This document shows positions 38,904 to 49,657 of a stretch of 64,000 bases of DNA, in pieces (the first letter of the stretch is position 1; the number at the start of each line of letters is the position of its first letter). The stretch covers positions 186,001-250,000 of the forward strand of contig NZ_JAAAKV010000005.1 of NCBI RefSeq assembly GCF_009905725.1, written 5' to 3'. Made by a program: the position numbers and the translations under genes. Origin of the DNA: Emticicia sp. CRIBPO (GTDB lineage Bacteria; Bacteroidota; Bacteroidia; Cytophagales; Spirosomataceae). The notes under the pieces are model-generated. The model did not search any database. It had not been told where the DNA came from and saw only the letters and a list, made by a program, of their open reading frames with translations.

Positions 38904-40451
38904 TCAATTTCCACCGGTACCTTTTGTACCCAGGGGCAAGACCACCGGAGGCACGGAAAGAGAAGTGCCATTATTCGACTGATCAGCCCCGATGTCGGTA
39001 TTTCCGCTTCTGGGCCCTCCGTCATAATCTTTTTCGAGTAAACTGCCCAGGGCTTTGCCTTTGCCGATACAAGGACTGTCGCCTGACAGGTGGTGCTGGC
39101 TGTTTAACCTGGGGTCTGCGTTCGTACTGGTGCCGTCCATTTTTGACTTTGTTTTCCAGTTCGCAAAACCGTCAAACTCCTCATAGTCATCTTCATTTTT
39201 ATCAATCCGGAAAGTCATACTGCCGTTGCGGTAATAGAAATTGTTCCCGATTTCATTGTTGCCGTCCGGAGCAATTCTCAAACGGGCCATATTCCCTTGT
39301 GCGGAGCCAGCCTGGATAAAAATATTGTTAGACACCTTCAGGTCTTTGCATTTGGGATGTTTGTCGCCTGCGGGAGCACCATATATTTCTCCCCTTGAAA
39401 TCATCAGAGCGGAGCTGCCGTCGTCGCTGGCGGCATTGACAATGGTGTTGTTATACACCTGGGCTCCTATCGCTGCATACAGCCCGATACCTTCCCGTTT
39501 TACATTCACGACGATATTATTACGAATAATGATGTTGATGCTTTCATAATAGTTGGGATTCGTAGTGGTATTGAACCACTCGGCGTCCGTGTCAAGATAT
39601 CCGGCCACCAGTCCGCCTTCGCCACAGTTCATGATCAGGTTTTGCTCAAAAACACAATCCTTCGCTCCGCCTTTGGCATACAAGGCATTGGTGGCGATAT
39701 CGTGAAAGTAGCAGTTTCTGACGATCATCTTGTCTGCGTTGACATTGTCAATTCCTTCTGCATTCTGAGCTTCTTTGTTCGCAATACCCACACCTGATCT
39801 GTAGATCTCGCAATTGAGTATCTGGATGTCTTTGCATCCCGGTGTTATCTTGATACAGTCTCGACCGGTGTCATGGATTTTACAATTCATGATTTTTACG
39901 TTGGAGATGCCTTTTCTGTCAGCAAAAGGCACACTTCTGTCATCGTCCCAGTTACTTTCCAGTTTAATGCCGTAGTAATATCCGCCGATGATTTCGAGGT
40001 TTTCGAGGGTGATGTTGGAAGTTCCCGGTTCACGAAACCACAGACAGCTGGAAACGTCCTCCACATCAGTCCCGGCTTTGATGACGGCCCATTCTCCCGG
40101 ATAAGAATGCATATAAATGTTCGAAGTCCTGAATTTGATTTCTTTACTTTCATAGGTGCCGCCTCTTAAAATGATCTCGATGCTTTTAGCCGGATCGGCA
40201 TTATTGGCGGCTGCCTGTATGGTTTTGAAAGGTTTGCTTTCGCTGCCATCATTGGTGTCGCTGCCTGAGGGCGAGACGTATACTTTTCCGCTTAGCGTGC
40301 CTCCGGTTCCTTCTCCATCACAATCGGGTGGGGCTTCGGGGCAGCCACAGGCGGTCGGGTCGTCCGAACATTCTTCAGATTCCACCTCATTTTTCTGGCA
40401 GGATGAAAAGGTCATCCATAAAATGAACAAAAAGTATGATAGGTTTTTCAT
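38904..40451 (-). CDS. Right-handed beta-helix lipoprotein (choice-of-anchor-Q-like)
   Basis: 515 residues. Lipobox SSC at about 16-18 indicates a lipid anchor. A Cys-rich stretch follows, then a right-handed parallel beta-helix from about 70 to 480: KTIQAAANNADPAKSIEIIL, NIKIMNCKIHDTGRDCIKI-like repeats, NLIMNCGEGGLVAGYL. The end (DIGADQSNN) matches the choice-of-anchor Q C-terminus. Such folds bind or cut polysaccharides, but no lyase residues are certain. Last gene of the eight-gene set; 2 bases after the previous gene. Confidence 0.83.
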   Translation of the reverse strand: MKNLSYFLFILWMTFSSCQKNEVESEECSDDPTACGCPEAPPDCDGEGTGGTLSGKVYVSPSGSDTNDGSESKPFKTIQAAANNADPAKSIEIILRGGTYESKEIKFRTSNIYMHSYPGEWAVIKAGTDVEDVSSCLWFREPGTSNITLENLEIIGGYYYGIKLESNWDDDRSVPFADRKGISNVKIMNCKIHDTGRDCIKITPGCKDIQILNCEIYRSGVGIANKEAQNAEGIDNVNADKMIVRNCYFHDIATNALYAKGGAKDCVFEQNLIMNCGEGGLVAGYLDTDAEWFNTTTNPNYYESINIIIRNNIVVNVKREGIGLYAAIGAQVYNNTIVNAASDDGSSALMISRGEIYGAPAGDKHPKCKDLKVSNNIFIQAGSAQGNMARLRIAPDGNNEIGNNFYYRNGSMTFRIDKNEDDYEEFDGFANWKTKSKMDGTSTNADPRLNSQHHLSGDSPCIGKGKALGSLLEKDYDGGPRSGNTDIGADQSNNGTSLSVPPVVLPLGTKGTGGN

Positions 40452-40453
40452 GG

Positions 40454-41128
40454 CTATTGTTGTCTGAGATAAGTGTATGCTTCTTCTACCCGTGTTGGTT
40501 TTGTGAACAGGTCTTTTGCGTAAACCATATTCCCGATCATCAGTTTTTCGGTAATAAAGACACCAAAAAACGTTGCTTTAAAGGAGGCTCCGAAATGCCC
40601 GTCAACTCCGTTAACGACAGATCCGTTCAACTGGTAAGTGATGCTTCCGCCATCTGTCACGCCGTTACCCTGGTTTTTCCGGAACTGGAGAGACTTCGCC
40701 TGTTTGGAAAAGGTCAGGTCCCACTGCTTTTCATTCAGCCATTTTGAATCGTCGAGGTCTTTGGGAGTTGAAGCAGCCTTGTCCAGTTGTTTGATGGTCC
40801 AGTGGTCATGGTTGATGTTGCTGACTTCTTTAAGCTGATTGCCGTTAAAGGTCAGGTGGGTTTTGATGCCGTTCGAAGTGAAGGTGATGATAATACCTCC
40901 CTGTTCGGCCACTTCCCATTTGCCGATGTATTTTCCGGAAATATCCTCCCAGACAAAATTATTCTGGTCATCAAGGCTCAGGGCAAACACCCTGTTGACG
41001 GTTTCAGCTTTGTAAGTGATTTTGCCTCCCCATACCGTATTTTTGTAAGAGGCTGCGGGGTCATCGTCTTTCTGTGCACATCCTGCCAGAAAATACAGCA
41101 GGCTGAGCAGGATAAAATAAGTTCTCAT
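40454..41128 (-). CDS. Lipoprotein, lipocalin-like beta-rich, unknown
   Basis: 224 residues. Lipobox LAGC (Cys about 17), then an acidic linker and beta-strand-rich body with WGGKITYKAETVNRVFALSL and a KIGKWEVAEQGG-like turn, where repeated Trp-containing strands recall lipocalin-like domains. Function unknown. Its start overlaps the upstream gene end by 4 bases, so translation is coupled. Confidence 0.75.
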   Translation of the reverse strand: MRTYFILLSLLYFLAGCAQKDDDPAASYKNTVWGGKITYKAETVNRVFALSLDDQNNFVWEDISGKYIGKWEVAEQGGIIITFTSNGIKTHLTFNGNQLKEVSNINHDHWTIKQLDKAASTPKDLDDSKWLNEKQWDLTFSKQAKSLQFRKNQGNGVTDGGSITYQLNGSVVNGVDGHFGASFKATFFGVFITEKLMIGNMVYAKDLFTKPTRVEEAYTYLRQQ

Positions 41129-41736
41129 TTTGTTTTTCTTTTTAACGTTAATTGTACTTTTTTATCATGCCTCGGGTCAAGACTGTCGTAGTGGCTGTAT
41201 CCGGAGGCCGTGTTGTAACCAAAACTGAGTGTGATCGTCAGAACATCGCCCTCCCAATGTCCCGCCGAACCTCCAAGCAGTGTGAAATTTGGCAGAATCC
41301 TCTTTTTTTCATCTTCGGGTCTGAAATGAAAACTGAAATCATGGAAATCTTCTTTGCTTACGGATCCGTAGATTTCGTAGTTTTCCTGTCCGAGTCGGCT
41401 GATGACAGTCGCATTTCCGTCAAAACCCCTTTTATCTTTTGAACGGATGCCCTTGCGGTTTTTCCATTTTCTGCCTGCCTTTTTCTCCCGTTCTTCTTTG
41501 CTTACGGGTTCATAGATTTCCAGACGGATGGTTTTGGATATATTGTCCGGGTCTTTAAAAGAGCCTTCCCAGGTATCTACCAGCAGAGGGGCGTTTTCAT
41601 CATCGTTGTATGCCCACGGTCTGTCTCTAAGGTCAGACCAGTAGCTGTAGGCGTATTGGCATTTGTAAATTCCCCAGCTGATGCCGATTCCTATCACCAG
41701 GAATAGCAGACATCCTTTTGCTTTTTTAGCATCCAT
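41125..41736 (-). CDS. Membrane-anchored unknown protein of the surface operon
   Basis: 203 residues. An N-terminal hydrophobic helix (about 9-23) anchors it; the rest is a beta-rich extracytoplasmic domain (WEGSFKDPDNISKTIRLEIY, DGNATVISRLGQENYEIYG, GHWEGDVLTITLSFGY). No family recognised. It lies 10 bases after the beta-trefoil-like gene and overlaps the next by 4. Confidence 0.75.
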   Translation of the reverse strand: MDAKKAKGCLLFLVIGIGISWGIYKCQYAYSYWSDLRDRPWAYNDDENAPLLVDTWEGSFKDPDNISKTIRLEIYEPVSKEEREKKAGRKWKNRKGIRSKDKRGFDGNATVISRLGQENYEIYGSVSKEDFHDFSFHFRPEDEKKRILPNFTLLGGSAGHWEGDVLTITLSFGYNTASGYSHYDSLDPRHDKKVQLTLKRKTK

Positions 41737-41746
41737 GAGATAGTAT

Positions 41747-42253
41747 TTAAGGTTTTTCGAGTACCCATATGGAATCCCAGTAGTTTGGGTCCATTATCCC
41801 GATGCTTAGGGTCGAACTTCTGCCGTAACACGTGTAACAGCTCACCAGGTATGAGGAGGGGTTGGCTACTGACTGGATGTGATAGCGGTCTGAGCCTTCG
41901 CTGATGGGCACAAAGGTGAAAAGGTCGGCATCTGAACTTGAAAATGCAGTGGCCATAATATAAGTATATATGGATCCGGTCGTACTGAGATACATATCGA
42001 TGTTTTCTTTGGCGACAACGTAGTACTGGCCGGGTTTCGGACCTGAAAGCACCTTCATCACAGTCGAATTGCCTCTGCCGATGTCAAAAGCGGGCCTATT
42101 AGCATCATCCGTAAAAGCCAGGTATTGCTTGCTTTCCACGTTTTTTAGTTTCCAGTCACCGGCAAGCGGATGAGCAGGTTCATTGTTTTTCTTCCCGCAG
42201 GCAATAACCATGACGGAGAGAAAGAATACGGTGATTTTCAGCAGCTTTTTCAT
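41747..42253 (-). CDS. Beta-trefoil-like lipoprotein, unknown
   Basis: 168 residues, lipobox VIAC at about 16-19. WKLKNVESKQYLAFTDD, YYVVAKENIDMYLSTTG and YHIQSVANPSSYLV form three similar blocks that end near a Trp or Tyr, as in a beta-trefoil (ricin/fascin-like) fold, which commonly binds sugar or proteins. Inference by pattern only. Its start overlaps the preceding gene by 4 bases. Confidence 0.7.
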   Translation of the reverse strand: MKKLLKITVFFLSVMVIACGKKNNEPAHPLAGDWKLKNVESKQYLAFTDDANRPAFDIGRGNSTVMKVLSGPKPGQYYVVAKENIDMYLSTTGSIYTYIMATAFSSSDADLFTFVPISEGSDRYHIQSVANPSSYLVSCYTCYGRSSTLSIGIMDPNYWDSIWVLEKP

Positions 42254-42714
42254 AGTTTTTGAAATTCCTGGTAGAGTATGTTCTTTTTATAATTGCTGAT
42301 TTTTGTAGCATCTACTTTTGTGGTCAGCAGTGTGCCGGCACCGGATTTTGAGGAGGTTTCTATCTCAAACACCAGATCACCATTTTGTCCCACGGCCTGT
42401 GAAAGCTCCCTGGCCCAATCTCCTGAAATAATCAGTTTATTACCATTGACTTTCCACCGGCCCAGTTGTACGGGAGACTTGCCGTCGGTTGCGGAGAATT
42501 TGCCGTCTCCGAAAAATTCCCAGATAACCAGCATGCCTTTGGCCTTTATTTCAACCCTGGGCTGAAGCTGGGTGCCGTCCTGTTTGGTAATGTTGTACCC
42601 GCTGCGGATCATCTGCCATTTGCCTGCCAGATTCTGAGCGTTTGAAAGGGTAGCAGATCCCATCAAAATAATTACTGCAACAGATATTGTTTTTAGGATA
42701 TTAGCATGTCTCAT
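42250..42714 (-). CDS. Secreted lipocalin-like protein, unknown
   Basis: 154 residues from ATG at 42714 (MRHANILKTISVAV), chosen over the longer frame to 42744 because it follows the upstream stop by 4 bases and gives a signal peptide ending in SNAQN. Body: AGKWQMIRSGYNITKQDGTQ, VIWEFFGDGKFSAT, QLGRWKVNGNKLIISGDWAR, which is the lipocalin-like DUF4488/DUF5004-like strand order. Similar in layout to the 42719-43246 product. No Cys lipobox. Confidence 0.75.
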   Translation of the reverse strand: MRHANILKTISVAVIILMGSATLSNAQNLAGKWQMIRSGYNITKQDGTQLQPRVEIKAKGMLVIWEFFGDGKFSATDGKSPVQLGRWKVNGNKLIISGDWARELSQAVGQNGDLVFEIETSSKSGAGTLLTTKVDATKISNYKKNILYQEFQKL

Positions 42715-42718
42715 TTCT

Positions 42719-43246
42719 TTATTGTTTAATATACTGATACTCAATTATTGTATTTAGCTTATCATCTGTGAAGTCCTTGCTTTGTATTAAGGCAATAAAA
42801 TAGAGCTTCCCTCCATCTTCTCCCTGGGTAATGATATATTCGAGCTTTTCTTTTCCAAAAACCTGTGCAATCTCTTTGGTCCAGGATCCGGTTAGCGTAA
42901 GTATCCCTTCATCGATATAATTTGCCGTTGATTTTTGTACTTTCAATGACCAGTTTCCGGTTTGCCTGTTCCCTTTATTGTCGTGGGAAGTAAACCCGCC
43001 ATTTTTCTCAAATTCCCAAACGACATCAATCGTACGATCTTTAGCGTAGTTAGAGCTGTTTTTATATGTGCCGTTTGATTGCTCCTGACGCGTCGTTATC
43101 CGGTCTAACTTCCATGTGCCCAGCATCAACTTATAGGTATCTCCTTCCGCTTTCGGATCATCGTTTTCAGAACTGCAACCTGCTCCGCAGTTGATCAGTA
43201 CAACTGCTGCCAGTACCATTGTTTTCAGAATTGTGTACGTTTTCAT
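42719..43246 (-). CDS. Lipocalin-like lipoprotein, unknown
   Basis: 175 residues with lipobox region CGAGC (about 20-24). Body LMLGTWKLDRITTRQEQSNG, VVWEFEKNGGFTSHDNKGNR, TGNWSLKV and TLTGSWTKEIAQVFG resembles the lipocalin-like protein encoded downstream, so the two are probable duplicates. A short satellite repeat lies just upstream. No known ligand. Confidence 0.77.
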   Translation of the reverse strand: MKTYTILKTMVLAAVVLINCGAGCSSENDDPKAEGDTYKLMLGTWKLDRITTRQEQSNGTYKNSSNYAKDRTIDVVWEFEKNGGFTSHDNKGNRQTGNWSLKVQKSTANYIDEGILTLTGSWTKEIAQVFGKEKLEYIITQGEDGGKLYFIALIQSKDFTDDKLNTIIEYQYIKQ

Positions 43247-43259
43247 AAATGTTTAATTT

Positions 43260-43305
43260 TGAATGATAGAATGATGAATGATAGAATGAGTGAATGATGA
43301 ATGAC
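43260..43305. repeat. Short degenerate GAATGATA/TGAATGA satellite
   Basis: About 46 bases of nearly repeated GAATGATAGAATGATGAATG units, 14 bases before the lipocalin-like gene start and after the peptidase gene. Low-complexity array; could slip and alter spacing or promoter. Confidence 0.75.
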
Positions 43306-43367
43306 TGGGAGGGATGAATTGACCGGACCAATTCCTTTTTCCATCCTCCTTTTTCCTTTCTACAGAA

Positions 43368-44765
43368 CTACAATGTTATTTTAGAACCGAAACCTGTGTC
43401 CGAAGGGTTGTTATGCTTTCCGTCGCCGTCGTCATCGTAAAGGGAAGTGCTCTTCTGGCTGGGTTTTTCCTTGTTGTAAATCTCTTCGGCGACTTTTGCT
43501 CCTTTGAATATTTCGTTCATCTGCATCAGGCCGTCCTTATTGAGATCGAAGAGGTAAGGAGGGATGGTAGATAAGGTGATCGGGTACAGAAAATGAGTCA
43601 GGTAAGCATCCAAGTCATAGGAACTTCTGCCCCAGCTGTATTCATATTCAGTCGTAGCTGAAATCAACACCCGGTTCGGGCCTCTCATGTCATGGATAAA
43701 TCCACCGGAGAAACATTGAAGGAACAGCCCTTTTAAAACCACAAAGGGCAGGGAATTTATCTTTTTGGCAAAATCGTCGTCGCTGAGAGTCTGTGACTGG
43801 TTGTAATAACTCAGCACTTCATCGAAATCAGTTGATGCCCCTGTCGGCTCATCGTTGTTGAGGTCTGCATTGGCTCCGTAATTTACTTTTTCAACACTGT
43901 GATACCCACCGCCATGGTTCGTGGTCATCACGAATAACTCTGCTTTCTGACCGGCCATGATTTTCTTCAGGTAATTTATGGCATCGTCGAAACCTGAAGG
44001 ATTGGCAGCGTAGTTTACAGGTATCTGCGGGTATATTCTCGGAACTGTTATGATGGAGCTTGGAATCAGGGTTTCCGGTTTGCCGTCCTTGTAAACCACT
44101 ACGATGTTTTCATCTGCATATCCTTGTCTGAGGAGGAGGTTGTACATCACTTGAATGTTATTGTAATAGTGGGTGTATGCCCCCACAGCATCAATTCCGC
44201 CGCTATAAAGCAAGGCAAATTTGGTCCTGTCTTTGGGCAAGGCCCTGACGACGGCCAGGTCCAGGTATTCGGATGTGGCAATCTGCATTTTCTGGGCTGA
44301 CAGAGCCAGCGGCATGGTGTTCAGCACGATGGTGGCCAGGTGCTTCTCGCCGATCAGTTTGGAAGCCGCCATGATCGATTCCCCGGCAACATTTTTAGCC
44401 TGGAACATGGAGAGCTTTCCTGTGGCCTTTATCTTCTGTCCGTTCATTTCTCCCAGTTTGGCAAACTGGTTAAAGGACGAAGCTCCGGAAGTGGTTTGGA
44501 CGAGAATGTAATTCTTCTGGTCCAGAAAGGTATTCAGACTGGCGAAGTTGCTGTCATTGACAATCTTGAAAACATTTTCGCTGACCTGGATAAGATAGCC
44601 TTCAACGGTAATTTCCTGCCCGATCTTGCTTTTCCAGTCGTCCGATTTAATGTTGGAAAAATCTTCAAACTCGGGTTCAATGGATTCGTTTTCGGATGTC
44701 TGGCAAGAAAATACCATGACAGCCAGAAGAAAGGTGATCAATATATTTTTCATGGGGTTTTTCAT
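43368..44765 (-). CDS. Legumain/caspase-fold (C13-like) cysteine peptidase lipoprotein with EF-hand
   Basis: 465 residues. Lipobox VFSC with Cys about 21. Residues about 43-140 look like an OB-type domain (WKSKIGQEITVEGYLI). From about 180, FALLYSGGIDAVGAYTHYYN, then VMTTNHGGGYH (catalytic His about 284) and LFLQCFSGGFI (catalytic Cys about 351), the His/Cys arrangement of the clan CD caspase/legumain fold. A 12-residue EF-hand loop D407-E418 (DLNKDGLMQMNE) follows, and a DDDGDG stretch near the end, suggesting Ca2+ dependence. Second gene of the surface operon, 12 bases after the SGNH-like gene. Confidence 0.82.
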   Translation of the reverse strand: MKNPMKNILITFLLAVMVFSCQTSENESIEPEFEDFSNIKSDDWKSKIGQEITVEGYLIQVSENVFKIVNDSNFASLNTFLDQKNYILVQTTSGASSFNQFAKLGEMNGQKIKATGKLSMFQAKNVAGESIMAASKLIGEKHLATIVLNTMPLALSAQKMQIATSEYLDLAVVRALPKDRTKFALLYSGGIDAVGAYTHYYNNIQVMYNLLLRQGYADENIVVVYKDGKPETLIPSSIITVPRIYPQIPVNYAANPSGFDDAINYLKKIMAGQKAELFVMTTNHGGGYHSVEKVNYGANADLNNDEPTGASTDFDEVLSYYNQSQTLSDDDFAKKINSLPFVVLKGLFLQCFSGGFIHDMRGPNRVLISATTEYEYSWGRSSYDLDAYLTHFLYPITLSTIPPYLFDLNKDGLMQMNEIFKGAKVAEEIYNKEKPSQKSTSLYDDDGDGKHNNPSDTGFGSKITL

Positions 44766-44777
44766 TTTAGATTTTAG

Positions 44778-45620
44778 TTATTTACCGGCATTGTAAATGC
44801 TCATTAAGAAAGCTTTGCTGATCCTGGTTGCTGCTGCTTCACACAGATGACCCTGGCCCTCGGGGGCGTCAACACCCTGATTTTTACTCGGGCAGCTTGA
44901 AGTAGACCTGTTTTCGCTGCAGAGTGTCCATACACTACCTAATTTGCAGGCCCCGTTGTTGGATTCTATTTCTTCCAGTTCGAAAATCACGTCTTTATCC
45001 TTGAAATTGTCTTTCATCCATTGAGCCATCTTCATTTTGGCGGCATTGCCTTCGTCTTTGGTGACAATGGTGATCAGGGGAGGGGTGACGTGCACAAACC
45101 GGACTCCGGAAATCTGACTGCGGAGGTCGTCGATCATATTTTTGTAAGCAGTCTTGACCTGCTCAAGGTTTCCGTCATTGATGTCTGCATAACCGAATTT
45201 GAAAATGGCGATTTGCACGGCAGATTTGTGGGCCAGGGCGTTGTTTTTAAACTCCTGTATCTTTTCGATGGGATTGCCGTTGGAGGCACTGAAGACATTT
45301 CCGGATAAACCATTGGGTTTTTCGTTCATGTCAAAATACTCAAACCGGAAACCGTTGTTGGCAGAGCCGTCTTCAAGGTCACCGCCTACAGACTGGTGCA
45401 TGAATATGGCATTCCAGCCTTTGATCTTGTTTTTCTCAGAGGACGATAAATTGTCCCAGGCACTGATTCCTGAGAGGCCGACCACGCCCGGCTGGCCTTT
45501 ACCTAAAGCGGATGTTCCCGGTTCTTCGCCCGGATCGGTATCATCAGGGTCCGGGTCGTTTCCTGACGATGAGCAGGCAATGGAGCCGATGATTAATGCG
45601 ATAAAAAGAAAATGTTTCAT
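44778..45620 (-). CDS. SGNH-hydrolase-like lipoprotein
   Basis: 280 residues from ATG at 45620, giving lipobox IACSSS; a frame upstream to 45647 lacks a signal peptide. A long acidic Asp/Pro linker follows. IFMHQSVGGDLEDG, IAIFKFGYADINDG, RFVHVTPPLITIV and the terminal GHLCEAAATRI fit an SGNH-like alpha/beta fold with possible catalytic Ser and His; a full motif set is not sure. First gene of the surface operon. Confidence 0.75.
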   Translation of the reverse strand: MKHFLFIALIIGSIACSSSGNDPDPDDTDPGEEPGTSALGKGQPGVVGLSGISAWDNLSSSEKNKIKGWNAIFMHQSVGGDLEDGSANNGFRFEYFDMNEKPNGLSGNVFSASNGNPIEKIQEFKNNALAHKSAVQIAIFKFGYADINDGNLEQVKTAYKNMIDDLRSQISGVRFVHVTPPLITIVTKDEGNAAKMKMAQWMKDNFKDKDVIFELEEIESNNGACKLGSVWTLCSENRSTSSCPSKNQGVDAPEGQGHLCEAAATRISKAFLMSIYNAGK

Positions 45621-45914
45621 GAGTGCGTTTTTATTTATGAGAATCAAATCTATCTAATCACCCAAACCGGCGAAACGGTTAATCGACCAATGACATTTTA
45701 AATCGACAGGCAGCAGGTTTTGTGTTTCTGAAGTGTGGCGGAATACCGTTAAATAGAATATTTTCATTTTTTGAATCTGCTTCTTTGAAAAGAAGACCTG
45801 AATGTCTAACTTGTACAGAAAGCAGATTAAAAGCGAAAAAACACTGGTTTTAAGCTCTGTTTAAAAGCTATTTCTATTCAATGAAAAGCCACCTGGCAGA
45901 CTCTGAAATCTGAT

Positions 45915-46628
45915 ATGACAACGCCATCCGGATATACCTGCATCATTGTTGATGACAATGAGATTGATCGCCTGACCGCCTTGGTGTTTGCCAAAAAATA
46001 CCCGTTTTTAGATATTATAGGTGTGTTTTCTTCTGCCACCGAAGCCCTGGCTGCTCTTAAGGATGTTGAAGTGGATGTGCTGATCAGCGACATTGATATG
46101 CCTGAACTCAGCGGGTTGGAGTTCCGGTCCAGGATGATGAAAATCCCTGTTTGCATCTTTATTACGGCCTATGTTGATTATGCTGCCGATAGTTTTGACA
46201 TGGAAGCCCTCGACTTCCTGGTGAAACCCTTTAAGGCGGAGCGGTTTGAGCAATGTATGAACCGTGTGCAGCACTATATGGAGTTAAGGCATAAAGCCCG
46301 GCTGTTTGAATACAGCCTGGGGAGTGACAATACGGTCTTTATCAAAGACGGACATGAAAAAATCAAACTCAACCTTCATGACATTGTTTACCTGGAAGCA
46401 TTAAAGGATTATACCCGGATTATCACGACTTCAAAAAAATACAGCGTGTTGTCGTCTATCGGGCAGTTGCTGCATGAAACGGCGTTCAGTTCCTTTTTAA
46501 GGATTCACCGGAGTTATGCAGTGCAGCCTCATTTTATTGACAAGGTCACCTCTCAGCAGGTTTTTGTTCAGCATTATTCTCTTCCAGTGGGTCGCAGTTA
46601 CAAAGACGCGGTTCTGAACTTGAAATGA
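45915..46628 (+). CDS. LytTR-family response regulator
   Basis: 237 residues. Receiver domain (about 8-120): CIIVDDNEID acidic pocket, phospho-acceptor Asp about 59 in LISDIDMP, and Lys in LVKPFKAERF. C-terminal LytTR DNA-binding domain (about 140-237): HDIVYLEALKDYTRIIT, SSFLRIHRSYAVQPHFIDKV, LPVGRSYKDAVL. Overlaps the histidine kinase start by 4 bases. Divergent from the surface operon, so possibly its regulator. Confidence 0.92.
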   Translation: MTTPSGYTCIIVDDNEIDRLTALVFAKKYPFLDIIGVFSSATEALAALKDVEVDVLISDIDMPELSGLEFRSRMMKIPVCIFITAYVDYAADSFDMEALDFLVKPFKAERFEQCMNRVQHYMELRHKARLFEYSLGSDNTVFIKDGHEKIKLNLHDIVYLEALKDYTRIITTSKKYSVLSSIGQLLHETAFSSFLRIHRSYAVQPHFIDKVTSQQVFVQHYSLPVGRSYKDAVLNLK

Positions 46629-48646
46629 AAAAGTTAAGCATCATATTTTTACTCCTCGGCTGCTGCTATCCTGTTTCGGGGCAGAAAGCAGGTCAGGCTT
46701 TGATCGACTCTCTCTTGTCTGAAATTCCCAGGGCAAAAAATGATACGGTTAAGGTCAGGCTGCATAAGCGTGTGGCAGATGAATATTTTTTTATAGATGT
46801 CAGCAAAGCGATGGAGTATAGCAAAACCGGGCTGAAACTGGCCACAGCCATGAAGTGGGAGAGGGGTATCGGCGTATTTATCACCTACATCGCCCAGGCA
46901 TACAGTGGCATGGGAGTGTATGATTCCTGCATGCATTATTATAAAAAAGGCTATGTCATTCAGAAGAAGGCAGATGATAAGGCCAATATGACTTCGACAT
47001 TAAACAACATGGGTGCTGCAGAGCAGAATCTTAATTCTAATTTTACAAAGGCAGTTGAATATTACCTTGCAGCCCTGAAAATGGCGGAGCAGACCGACGA
47101 CAAATACATGATGGGAAATACCCTTGCCAATATTTCCAATGTATACATCGCACAGAAAAACCCGAAGAAATCCCTGGAGTATGCATTCCGGGCCCTGGCC
47201 ATAAGGCGGAAACTGGTCAGTTCCGGAGCCGTTAATGCGGACAGGGAAGTGGGGCGGTCTATGAGTAATATCGGGAATATTTACGTAGACCTGAAGGATA
47301 CGCTTAATGCCGGCAAATATTTCAGAAAGGCTCTGCCGTTATTGCTGAAAACAGAAGATAAGGACGCCCTCGCCAACTTATACACTTATATGTCGCTGAT
47401 TTATCCCAGGGATTCACCACAGAAAATCAGTTATGCTCTGAAGGCCGAACAAATGTGGGACGAGGTGAATCCTATGCATTCTGATGCGATTAACAACCTG
47501 GGAAATATCGGGGTGATTTACCTCGACAAAGTAAGAGAGGGGTCGCCTTCGTTGGGAATATCTTTAAGAAATGAATACCTCAGCAAATCAGAAAAGTATT
47601 TAAGAAAGGCCATTTTTCTGAGTAATCAGAAAGGAGAAGTAGGAGCTGAATCTTATTTCAAGGGGCCTTTGGCCGAACTTCAGGCCATCAGGGGAGATTA
47701 TAAAAATGCATATCTTAATTTCAGGGATTATCAGAATGTCCAGGACTCTTTGTATTCCCAGGAAAACAAAAATAACATTGCCGGGCTGGAGGGAAAGCGG
47801 GAAATAGAATTGCGGGATAAGCAGATTGAGATCAATCAACTTGAACTGGATGCCCAGAAACGGCAGCGGATTGGGCTACTGATTGGTTTGGGGCTGATTG
47901 TCGCCATTGTGGGTTTGCTGTACTGGCAAAACCAGACGAGAAAAAGGGCTAATATACAGTTGCTCCGTCTCAATTCAGAGCTGGATGAAGCCAATAAAAT
48001 CAAGGCCCGTTTTTTTGCGATTTTAAGTCATGACCTGCGTAGCCCGGTGGCTAACCTGGTTAATTTCCTGCATTTACAAAAAGAAGCTCCGGACTTATTA
48101 TCTGCCGAGGCCGTAGTTTCTCATCAGAAGAGAATCACTGAATCAGCTGAAAACCTGCTTGAAAACATGGAGTCGATGCTGCTCTGGAGCAAGAGCCAGA
48201 TGCAACATTTTAAGCCGCAATCCCGGGAGATTGAAGTGGATAGCTTATTCGGGTACATTCAGAAGTTTTTTGTGAGCGAAACAAGGATAAGTTTCAGTTT
48301 TGAGAACCCCGGCTCTCTGAAAGTAGTAACCGACGAGGATTATCTGAAAACCATCATGCAAAACCTGACCAATAATGCGGTGAAAGCTTTAGCTGCCACG
48401 CCCGATCCGCAGATCCGCTGGGAAGCCACAAAGAAAGGGAGTCAGGTAATACTGGCCATCATTGATAACGGCCCCGGAACTTCTGCCGGGCAGCTGAACG
48501 CCCTGTTCAGTGAAGAGGCAGAAATCGGTATCAAATCAGGACTGGGGTTGCATGTAGTCCGTGACCTCGCCAAAGCCATTGCCTGTAAAATTTCTGTTCA
48601 GCCTAATTCTGGGAGAGGGATGGAATTTCGGTTGGTGTTTGGGTGA
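46625..48646 (+). CDS. TPR sensor histidine kinase
   Basis: 673 residues: signal peptide, about six TPR units (about 25-380) in the periplasm, a membrane helix (about 416-434), HisKA with H469 in FFAILSHDLRSPVANL, and HATPase (N box TIMQNLTNNAVKAL, DNGPGTS, G box SGLGLHVVRDLAKA). The partner is a LytTR regulator, yet the kinase has the HisKA type rather than the LytS type (His_kinase). Overlaps the RR by 4 bases. Confidence 0.92.
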   Translation: MKKLSIIFLLLGCCYPVSGQKAGQALIDSLLSEIPRAKNDTVKVRLHKRVADEYFFIDVSKAMEYSKTGLKLATAMKWERGIGVFITYIAQAYSGMGVYDSCMHYYKKGYVIQKKADDKANMTSTLNNMGAAEQNLNSNFTKAVEYYLAALKMAEQTDDKYMMGNTLANISNVYIAQKNPKKSLEYAFRALAIRRKLVSSGAVNADREVGRSMSNIGNIYVDLKDTLNAGKYFRKALPLLLKTEDKDALANLYTYMSLIYPRDSPQKISYALKAEQMWDEVNPMHSDAINNLGNIGVIYLDKVREGSPSLGISLRNEYLSKSEKYLRKAIFLSNQKGEVGAESYFKGPLAELQAIRGDYKNAYLNFRDYQNVQDSLYSQENKNNIAGLEGKREIELRDKQIEINQLELDAQKRQRIGLLIGLGLIVAIVGLLYWQNQTRKRANIQLLRLNSELDEANKIKARFFAILSHDLRSPVANLVNFLHLQKEAPDLLSAEAVVSHQKRITESAENLLENMESMLLWSKSQMQHFKPQSREIEVDSLFGYIQKFFVSETRISFSFENPGSLKVVTDEDYLKTIMQNLTNNAVKALAATPDPQIRWEATKKGSQVILAIIDNGPGTSAGQLNALFSEEAEIGIKSGLGLHVVRDLAKAIACKISVQPNSGRGMEFRLVFG

Positions 48647-48655
48647 GGGGTTCTT

Positions 48656-49108
48656 TTAATCAAATCCTAACTCGCGAAGATGTATCTTACTGATATTGGG
48701 AGATCTTTTCATCATTTCCACCACGATATTGAAATCTTCCTGGGTTATCTGTCCTACAACAATAACAGGATTGTGCTTCACCTGATTCAGGACTTCGGAA
48801 AAACTATGCTGGTTTAGTTTTGAACAATCGACATAACTGTCGTAACTAAGAAAACTATAGTTGTTTTTCCTGATAAGATGCTGTAAATCGCTTAGTACGG
48901 GACTTCTCATTATTATCCCGTTTAAGTTGGAGTTAATATAAAACGAAGCGAGTAATATTCCTTCGTTTATTTTTCCAAGCACGATGTAATATTTTATTTT
49001 GGGTGGATTGGTGTCTTTTACAAACGCTTTAATAACACAACCAGGGATAAGCAATTTTTGAGCGAGTGACAGACTTTGATCCTCCGGGAGAAGGTCACCT
49101 AAGTTCAT
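48656..49108 (-). CDS. Partner of Panacea antitoxin, putative toxin
   Basis: 150 residues, no recognised family. Its start directly abuts the stop of the Panacea gene (49108/49109), as expected for a toxin following its antitoxin. The N-terminal half is beta-rich (LIPGCVIKAFVKDTNPPKIK, YYIVLGKINEGILLASFYIN), with YVDCSKL in the middle, which could be a small barrel like MazF/PemK; I do not see their catalytic residues. No signal peptide. Confidence 0.65.
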   Translation of the reverse strand: MNLGDLLPEDQSLSLAQKLLIPGCVIKAFVKDTNPPKIKYYIVLGKINEGILLASFYINSNLNGIIMRSPVLSDLQHLIRKNNYSFLSYDSYVDCSKLNQHSFSEVLNQVKHNPVIVVGQITQEDFNIVVEMMKRSPNISKIHLRELGFD

Positions 49109-49657
49109 TTAAGCAAAGAGTATAGATTTATGTTCTAAATGATCAACAATATAATCGAGCATTTCCTGGTCAGCCCCTTCAGCCCTCGCCATATCGAGGA
49201 TGTTGATTTCATCGTTTTCGTTGGCATTGTTCCAGGCCAGGTCGTGTGATTTATGAGAAAGCTGAGCAAAATTCAGACGATTATTCTCCCTGATGGAGAT
49301 ATCCAGGCACTCAATATCAGATTGAGTAAGGTAGTCAAGTTCAGCGTTATGTCTGGCCCTGATATTATGATTTCCTATTAATTCAAAAGCTGAAGCGAAT
49401 CCCTTAGGTAGTTTCTGAAAGGTTTCGTCATCTCTGAAAGCCTTAAATATATCATAGATTTTTGAAGGTACCGGGCCATTTTTCATAGCAATATATCTTT
49501 CTTCAATAATCATGTTGCCGAAACGGGCAAGATGTTTTTTTTCGGCAAAGTATAAGATTTTGAATATTTTCAAAAAGCCAGACTCTCCTATACTATTGCT
49601 TATATAGAGAAGAGCGTTTTTCGCTTTGTCAAAATCAAAATGGTTATTCTCTGTCAT
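49109..49657 (-). CDS. Panacea (SocA-like, DUF4065) antitoxin
   Basis: 182 residues. The Panacea signature is clear: KNALLYISNSIGESGFLKIF, KILYFAEKKHLARFGN, RYIAMKNGPVPSKIYDIFKA. Panacea proteins neutralise many unrelated toxins in PanAT modules. It is the first gene of a two-gene unit with an unrecognised small partner. Confidence 0.87.
   Translation of the reverse strand: MTENNHFDFDKAKNALLYISNSIGESGFLKIFKILYFAEKKHLARFGNMIIEERYIAMKNGPVPSKIYDIFKAFRDDETFQKLPKGFASAFELIGNHNIRARHNAELDYLTQSDIECLDISIRENNRLNFAQLSHKSHDLAWNNANENDEINILDMARAEGADQEMLDYIVDHLEHKSILFA

Follow-up and report, generated by a model that had tools for sequence, protein, structure and literature searches.

One open reading frame of Emticicia sp. 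CRIBPO raises the question of whether a cysteine peptidase dyad, an OB-like region and an EF-hand loop united in a single lipoprotein constitute a new type of enzyme, or a known one that has been modestly rebuilt. The frame is genuine, encodes 465 amino acids and occupies positions 43368-44765 (-) of a 64,000-nucleotide stretch of contig NZ_JAAAKV010000005.1, the whole of which is referred to here as the window. The initial annotation, made from the letters alone, had suggested calcium-triggered activity outside the cell and had proposed a family search and a structure prediction as checks. Full-length orthologues, 56-58% identical to the window protein, are present in a Cytophagia MAG (REAB01000123.1, G153) and a Bacteroidetes MAG (JAIFLU010000013.1), and these three proteins form the basis for most of the comparisons below. 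The features of the locus are collected in Table 1.

Table 1. Coordinates in the window of the features of the C13-like lipoprotein and of its gene neighbours.
Feature	Coordinates	Strand	Residues	Basis
Signal peptide, lipoprotein type (predicted)	44706..44753	(-)	5-20	Read from translation; Met5 the probable start
Cys21, presumed lipidated	44703..44705	(-)	21	Invariant in 3/3 orthologues
OB-like N-terminal region	44265..44639	(-)	about 43-167	Low-confidence model and fold search
Caspase/haemoglobinase-fold domain (predicted), assigned to family C13	43368..44231	(-)	179-465	PF01650, model, hhalign
Catalytic His284 (TNHGGG)	43914..43916	(-)	284	Invariant in 10/10 aligned relatives
Catalytic Cys351 (FLQCFSGG)	43713..43715	(-)	351	Invariant in 10/10 aligned relatives
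EF-hand-like calcium-type loop	43512..43547	(-)	407-418	PS00018-type match; recurrent position
Second acidic loop (DDDGDG)	43419..43436	(-)	444-449	Invariant in 3 orthologues
GDSL/SGNH-like lipoprotein, first gene of presumed operon	44778..45647	(-)		Conserved partner
Six genes downstream, chiefly small and secreted or lipoprotein-like (lipocalin-like, ricin-B-like, beta-helix)	38904..43246	(-)		Gene calls, Pfam
Divergent LytTR response regulator	45915..46628	(+)		PF00072, PF04397; 67% in L029
Divergent TPR histidine kinase	46625..48646	(+)		TPR and HATPase_c; 54% in L029

Met5 of the frame is aligned with the ATG starts of both orthologues, and translation probably begins there, at position 44753. 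The lipobox described earlier is represented by a lipobox-like ...VFSC motif ending in Cys21, a residue that is kept in all three proteins and whose lipidation is a prediction, while LPAM_1 matches one orthologue alone (E 0.03, below cut-off). Judged from these N-terminal features, the protein is probably lipid-anchored and of an exported type.

The family search returned Peptidase_C13 (PF01650) over residues 197-391 of the window protein, with a score of 26.0 bits (cut-off 22.8), and at E 1 none of the Pfam families for C14 (PF00656), clostripain (C11) or gingipain (C25). Both orthologues fall under the PF01650 cut-off, with 15.0 and 18.0 bits. PF01650 is found at E 0.05 or better in all 10 members of alignment A4, and PF00656 is absent from every one of them at that threshold. 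A PF01650 match alone was rejected as proof of membership in C13, since the C14 proteins of the phylum match this model as well (8/8; best E 3.7e-10, compared with 2.2e-21 for PF00656). Because PF01650 does not separate C13 from C14, and because the orthologues lie below its cut-off, the family assignment was tested further by profile comparison. In hhalign, the profile of the three orthologues matched a C13-like set of six phylum proteins, from which the window subfamily had been left out, at 99.1% (E 4e-19), in a match that covers the first helix and the dyad as well as the EF loop and the residues following it. The corresponding value for eight C14 proteins, all of which match PF00656, was 7.9% (E 0.004). 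Against the PDB, a ten-row alignment reached plant legumain at E 7e-13, a match to which the rows beyond the three orthologues contribute; the three-orthologue profile retrieved no legumain at E 10, and its matches were EF-hand proteins alone, at E 0.1 and above.

AlphaFold2 modelling of the full-length protein, from an alignment that included C13 relatives, gave a mean pLDDT of 62, with values of 82-97 in several core blocks before Cys351, 78 for residues 351-370 and 33-70 in later blocks. A Foldseek search with this model placed legumains first (E 1.1e-8) and gave 89 matches with E values of 0.001 or lower. VIA-align superposed it on human legumain with a Z of 19.9 over 217 residues (rmsd 2.6), a score shared by plant metacaspase-4 and the GPI transamidase subunit. 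The initial annotation had let its clan CD peptidase domain stand or fall with a caspase fold; a caspase fold is what the prediction produced, along with a strong match to legumain. Taken together, the profiles and the fold model support the assignment of the domain to peptidase family C13, the legumain family of clan CD.

The dyad read earlier from the NHGG and QCFSGG motifs corresponds to His284 and Cys351, both of which are invariant in all 10 aligned relatives. The specificity pocket is less conservative. In legumain, according to the available excerpt of PMC4357240, the specificity residues are Arg44, His45, Ser216 and Asp231. In the three orthologues, the Arg44/His45 columns of the alignment are occupied by His-Tyr once and Trp-Tyr twice, and three C13-like proteins of the phylum (L009, L016 and L013) retain a legumain-like Asn-x-Arg-His. 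Ser377 of the window protein aligns with Ser216; Asp386, which all three orthologues share, may be the counterpart of Asp231, a pairing guessed by eye. Two residues before the catalytic Cys, Leu349 stands in place of the Glu of the plant legumains shown. Because the Arg44/His45 pair has been lost from the pocket columns, the window protein should belong to C13 without being an asparaginyl endopeptidase, and the remaining pocket residues suggest that it may prefer basic or small residues at P1.

The loss of the S1 residues of legumain could also be taken further, to a protein that has kept the fold without useful catalysis and acts as a pseudo-peptidase or a binding protein, much as in a related group of the phylum whose motif has no Cys at all (SASGPF types). 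This is quite unlikely, since His284, Cys351 and their NHGG/QCFSGG surroundings are unchanged across the window protein and its two orthologues despite identities of only 56-58%, and a working peptidase remains the preferred reading. The Cys-less proteins themselves (L051, L053 and L055-L062) are caspase-fold-like and keep the HG motif, with SASGPF or a similar string replacing the catalytic Cys; most carry an EF-like loop and often a DDNGDG-like loop. Four of them were scanned with Pfam, giving C25 in one (E 0.013), C13 in one (E 0.008) and no match in two. By their motifs, they look like pseudo-peptidases.

The EF-hand loop with exact spacing that had been reported is likewise present. The segment DLNKDGLMQMNEI (residues 407-419) fits PROSITE PS00018, the pattern for the 12-residue DxDxDG...E loop of EF-hands, and begins 56 residues after Cys351. 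At least 90% of the rows in the ten-row alignment keep its D407, G412 and E418. A predicted helix at 416-433, the last long one, leaves the loop, and the preceding helix ends at 397, with none directly before it; pLDDT in this region of the AlphaFold2 model is about 55-69. No Pfam EF-hand model matches the window protein at E 1 (EF-hand_6 reaches E 0.76 in one orthologue), and a 39-residue segment containing the loop is similar to the EF-hands of KChIP at E 0.1 when the three-orthologue profile is compared with the PDB. A chance origin was rejected on two counts, namely that shuffling the window protein 20000 times yields a PS00018-type match in only 58 cases and that the loop recurs at this position in relatives. 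For the second acidic loop, DDDGDG, to which the initial annotation did not refer, a string of the DxDxDG type appears in 672 of 20000 shuffles, and L053, L059, L060 and other distant relatives have DDNGDG-like strings beyond their EF loop.

The recurrence of the EF loop was counted in two sets of phylum proteins, both of which include several near-duplicate loci. The first comprises 21 non-window loci found with PF01650 and thus selected without the loop-containing profile A5. Among the 19 that were parsed, the same 12-residue loop lies 62-93 residues after the Cys in 8 (shuffled mean 0.03, maximum 1 in 1000 rounds) and is absent from 11; the other two, L027 and L028, have a Cys motif that reads CLSG, and both have a matching loop by eye. 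The carriers are divided between C13-like (L007, L008, L009 and L016, the first two being the same proteins as L037 and L038) and C14-like proteins (L012, L014, L015 and L023). In the larger set, which is biased because the search profile A5 itself contains the loop, and for which the pattern was used without its last hydrophobic position, 21 of 41 proteins have the loop 45-93 residues downstream of the Cys motif or of the Cys-less string that replaces it. Removal of the window protein and its two orthologues leaves 18 of 38, against a shuffled mean of 0.07 and a maximum of 2 in 1000 rounds, and a count with the full 13-position pattern gave 16 of 40. EF-hand motifs have also been published for 7 archaeal caspase homologues (PMC6426788, excerpt). 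As read from these sequences, the EF-type loop is a built-in, recurrent feature of bacterial clan CD domains and not an added module. The view that the order of dyad and EF loop is foreign to known families has therefore to be given up: the domain is assigned to C13, and the loop recurs in C13-like and C14-like proteins alike.

Both acidic loops are probably structural calcium sites built into the domain, with the binding itself predicted; a single EF loop within the C-terminal half of the fold fits structural calcium better than it fits a trigger. The calcium-triggered protease first envisaged, in which the EF loop would switch the enzyme on outside the cell and autoprocessing would perhaps free it from its lipid anchor, draws on the match of the loop to the EF-hand pattern, on Cys21, which makes export likely, and on the clan members clostripain, metacaspases and gingipain, which require or contain calcium (PMC4357240, excerpt). 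The same excerpt, however, describes the calcium sites of the metacaspase TbMCA2 and gingipain as not structurally shared, which leaves no known common clan calcium switch to point to. Moreover, relatives built on very different architectures carry the loop as well, and a single unpaired loop inside the fold, with another acidic loop adjacent, suggests structural ions. A calcium trigger is considered unlikely.

The claim of an OB-like region fared less evenly. A model of residues 25-170 alone, built from 3 sequences, has a mean pLDDT of 57, yet 49 of the best 50 rows of its 707 Foldseek matches are proteins with known OB domains (AspRS/AsnRS/LysRS, SSB, RPA, CST and OBody), the odd row being 4hsp, a DUF3299 protein. 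Only 2 of the 707 reach E 0.001 (best 9.7e-4), and the best Z of 8.3, over 94 residues, is near the 7-8 that is typical of the tool where there is no clear match. At the sequence level, the best match in the PDB has an E of 0.63, and among 195 genomes of the family the window and G153 alone score better than E 0.01, followed by 12 weaker matches (E 0.013-0.044), of which 3 contain stops; in the PDB and the genomes searched, the region was found in the three orthologues only. OB identity is favoured by this low-confidence model but not settled: the fold matches lean towards the earlier description, and the pLDDT and the near-background Z do not.

The combination of OB-like region and C13 lipoprotein was found in three genomes. 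A one-off fusion was rejected, as both orthologues preserve the complete architecture at the identities given above. A widespread family was not supported either, since 222 genomes of the family yielded the window and 1 other full-length match, together with two short N-terminal matches in proteins read by eye as rhodanese/thioredoxin. In 390 genomes of the order the window was the only full-length match (one further short match has stops), and 395 genomes of the phylum added to the window only a distant C13-like protein and a short N-terminal match. The contig scans rest on few peptide patterns and may miss members; a single-protein query returned 0 loci, and a two-row query returned two, one of which is the G153 contig. 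Close relatives of the C13 domain (E below 1e-60) occur in 10 of the 395 sampled phylum genomes, 8 of which supplied rows to the profile.

The minus-strand genes from 45647 down to 38904 are close-packed, with one gap of 121 bp (43247-43367), and from this spacing and common strand the GDSL/SGNH-like gene, the C13 gene and the six downstream genes are presumed to form an operon. Homologues of the GDSL/SGNH-like protein lie near both orthologues, whose loci are L029 in the Cytophagia MAG and L031 in the Bacteroidetes MAG (68%, 287 aa, in L029; 66%, 246 aa, in L031), directly upstream in L029 and with two genes between in L031. Its match to PF13472 is weak (E 0.13 in the window, 0.011 in L029, none listed for L031). 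Across the three genomes this lipoprotein, at 66-68%, is better conserved than the C13 protein. For two of the downstream genes, 41125 and 42250, L029 contains clear homologues (51% and 40%). The LytTR/TPR-kinase pair is divergent in two genomes, and the L031 contig ends before that side. Elsewhere in the window, 49109-49657 (-) encodes a Panacea/SocA-like antitoxin domain (PF13274, E 1.6e-23) and adjoins an unassigned 150-aa gene at 48656-49108, possibly as a toxin-antitoxin pair. Chitinophaga pinensis is described as having a metacaspase fused to a GDSL-like lipase (PMC3501461, excerpt), which offers a loose parallel to the neighbouring C13 and GDSL/SGNH-like genes.

The conserved hydrolase-like partner gene, the probable membrane anchoring and the presence of peptide ligases and GPI transamidase, both of family C13, among the top structural matches would also suit a transpeptidase or transamidase, comparable to the peptide ligases of plants, by which exported proteins or lipids become linked to a partner. 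Likeness of fold, however, says nothing on function, and hydrolysis is the commoner activity in clan CD, such that this reading appears distinctly improbable. A more elaborate scheme is less probable still: here a lipid-anchored C13 enzyme with a remodelled, acidic S1 pocket, an OB-like substrate recruiter and calcium-held specificity loops would cut or transfer exported proteins at the envelope together with its GDSL/SGNH-like partner, in the manner of GPI transamidase.

Instead, the evidence points, with a fair measure of confidence, to a lipid-anchored, exported C13 cysteine endopeptidase that is not Asn-specific and in which calcium is structural rather than triggering. In such an enzyme the His284/Cys351 dyad, set in a caspase/haemoglobinase fold, would cut peptide bonds. 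The EF-like loop, which leads into the last long helix, and the DDDGDG loop would probably hold calcium constitutively, and calcium at both would lend stability to that half of the fold from which the specificity loops are built. The S1 pocket appears remodelled, with Arg44/His45 lost and Ser377 kept, and could admit a basic or small P1 residue. The OB-like region probably binds a partner or a substrate; likely substrates are the co-encoded exported proteins or proteins met at the envelope, and the divergent LytTR/TPR-kinase pair may exert control. What is uncommon at this locus is the joining of an OB-like region to a C13 lipoprotein inside a known family. The EF loop itself is recurrent and, because it belongs to the wider domain, the finding is less strange than it first looked. 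No dedicated paper on bacterial members of the legumain family was among the matches listed in the open full-text literature. If the proposal is true, a small, calcium-held C13 member with an altered pocket would be a convenient test of how the family shifted its P1 preference.

Among known systems, legumain (vacuolar processing enzyme) shares with the window protein the C13 family, the fold (Z 19.9), the positions of the His-Gly and Cys-x-Ser-Gly dyad motifs and the Ser at position 216. Legumain differs in its Arg44/His45, where the window subfamily reads His-Tyr or Trp-Tyr, and in having a C-terminal activation peptide and LSAM prodomain, whereas the window protein lacks these and ends 47 residues past the EF loop. 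It adds, for its part, the OB-like N-terminal region, the lipobox-like motif, two calcium-type loops and Leu349 for Glu. The GPI transamidase subunit (GPI8/PIG-K, C13) shares the fold (8imy_K; Z 19.9, rmsd 3.1, 224 residues) and a membrane-tethered peptidase domain, the tether being predicted in the window protein, which in contrast has a calcium-type loop, an OB-like region and a bacterial lipoprotein type, and no known complex partners. Closer to hand, the C13-like proteins of the phylum (L009, L013, L036, L037 and L038) share the dyad and the profile match. A strict EF-like loop follows the Cys in L009, L036, L037 and L038 but not in L013, and a PQY stretch near the C-terminus is common to L013 and the window protein; unlike the latter, none of the five was seen to have an OB-like region. 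L036 (G873; ORF from 5790 (+), open frame 2579 aa) is very long and has an N-terminal C13-like domain with dyad and EF-like loop. L037 (G644; ORF from 534 (+), 1040 aa) is C13-like and ends in a sorting domain for type IX secretion (PF18962), so that some bacterial C13 proteins are probably secreted. Finally, the bacterial C14 caspase-like proteins and orthocaspases share the clan, and several have an EF-like loop of the form DxNxDxxVTxxEL at a similar place, but they match PF00656 better than PF01650 and give the window subfamily a profile match of 7.9%.
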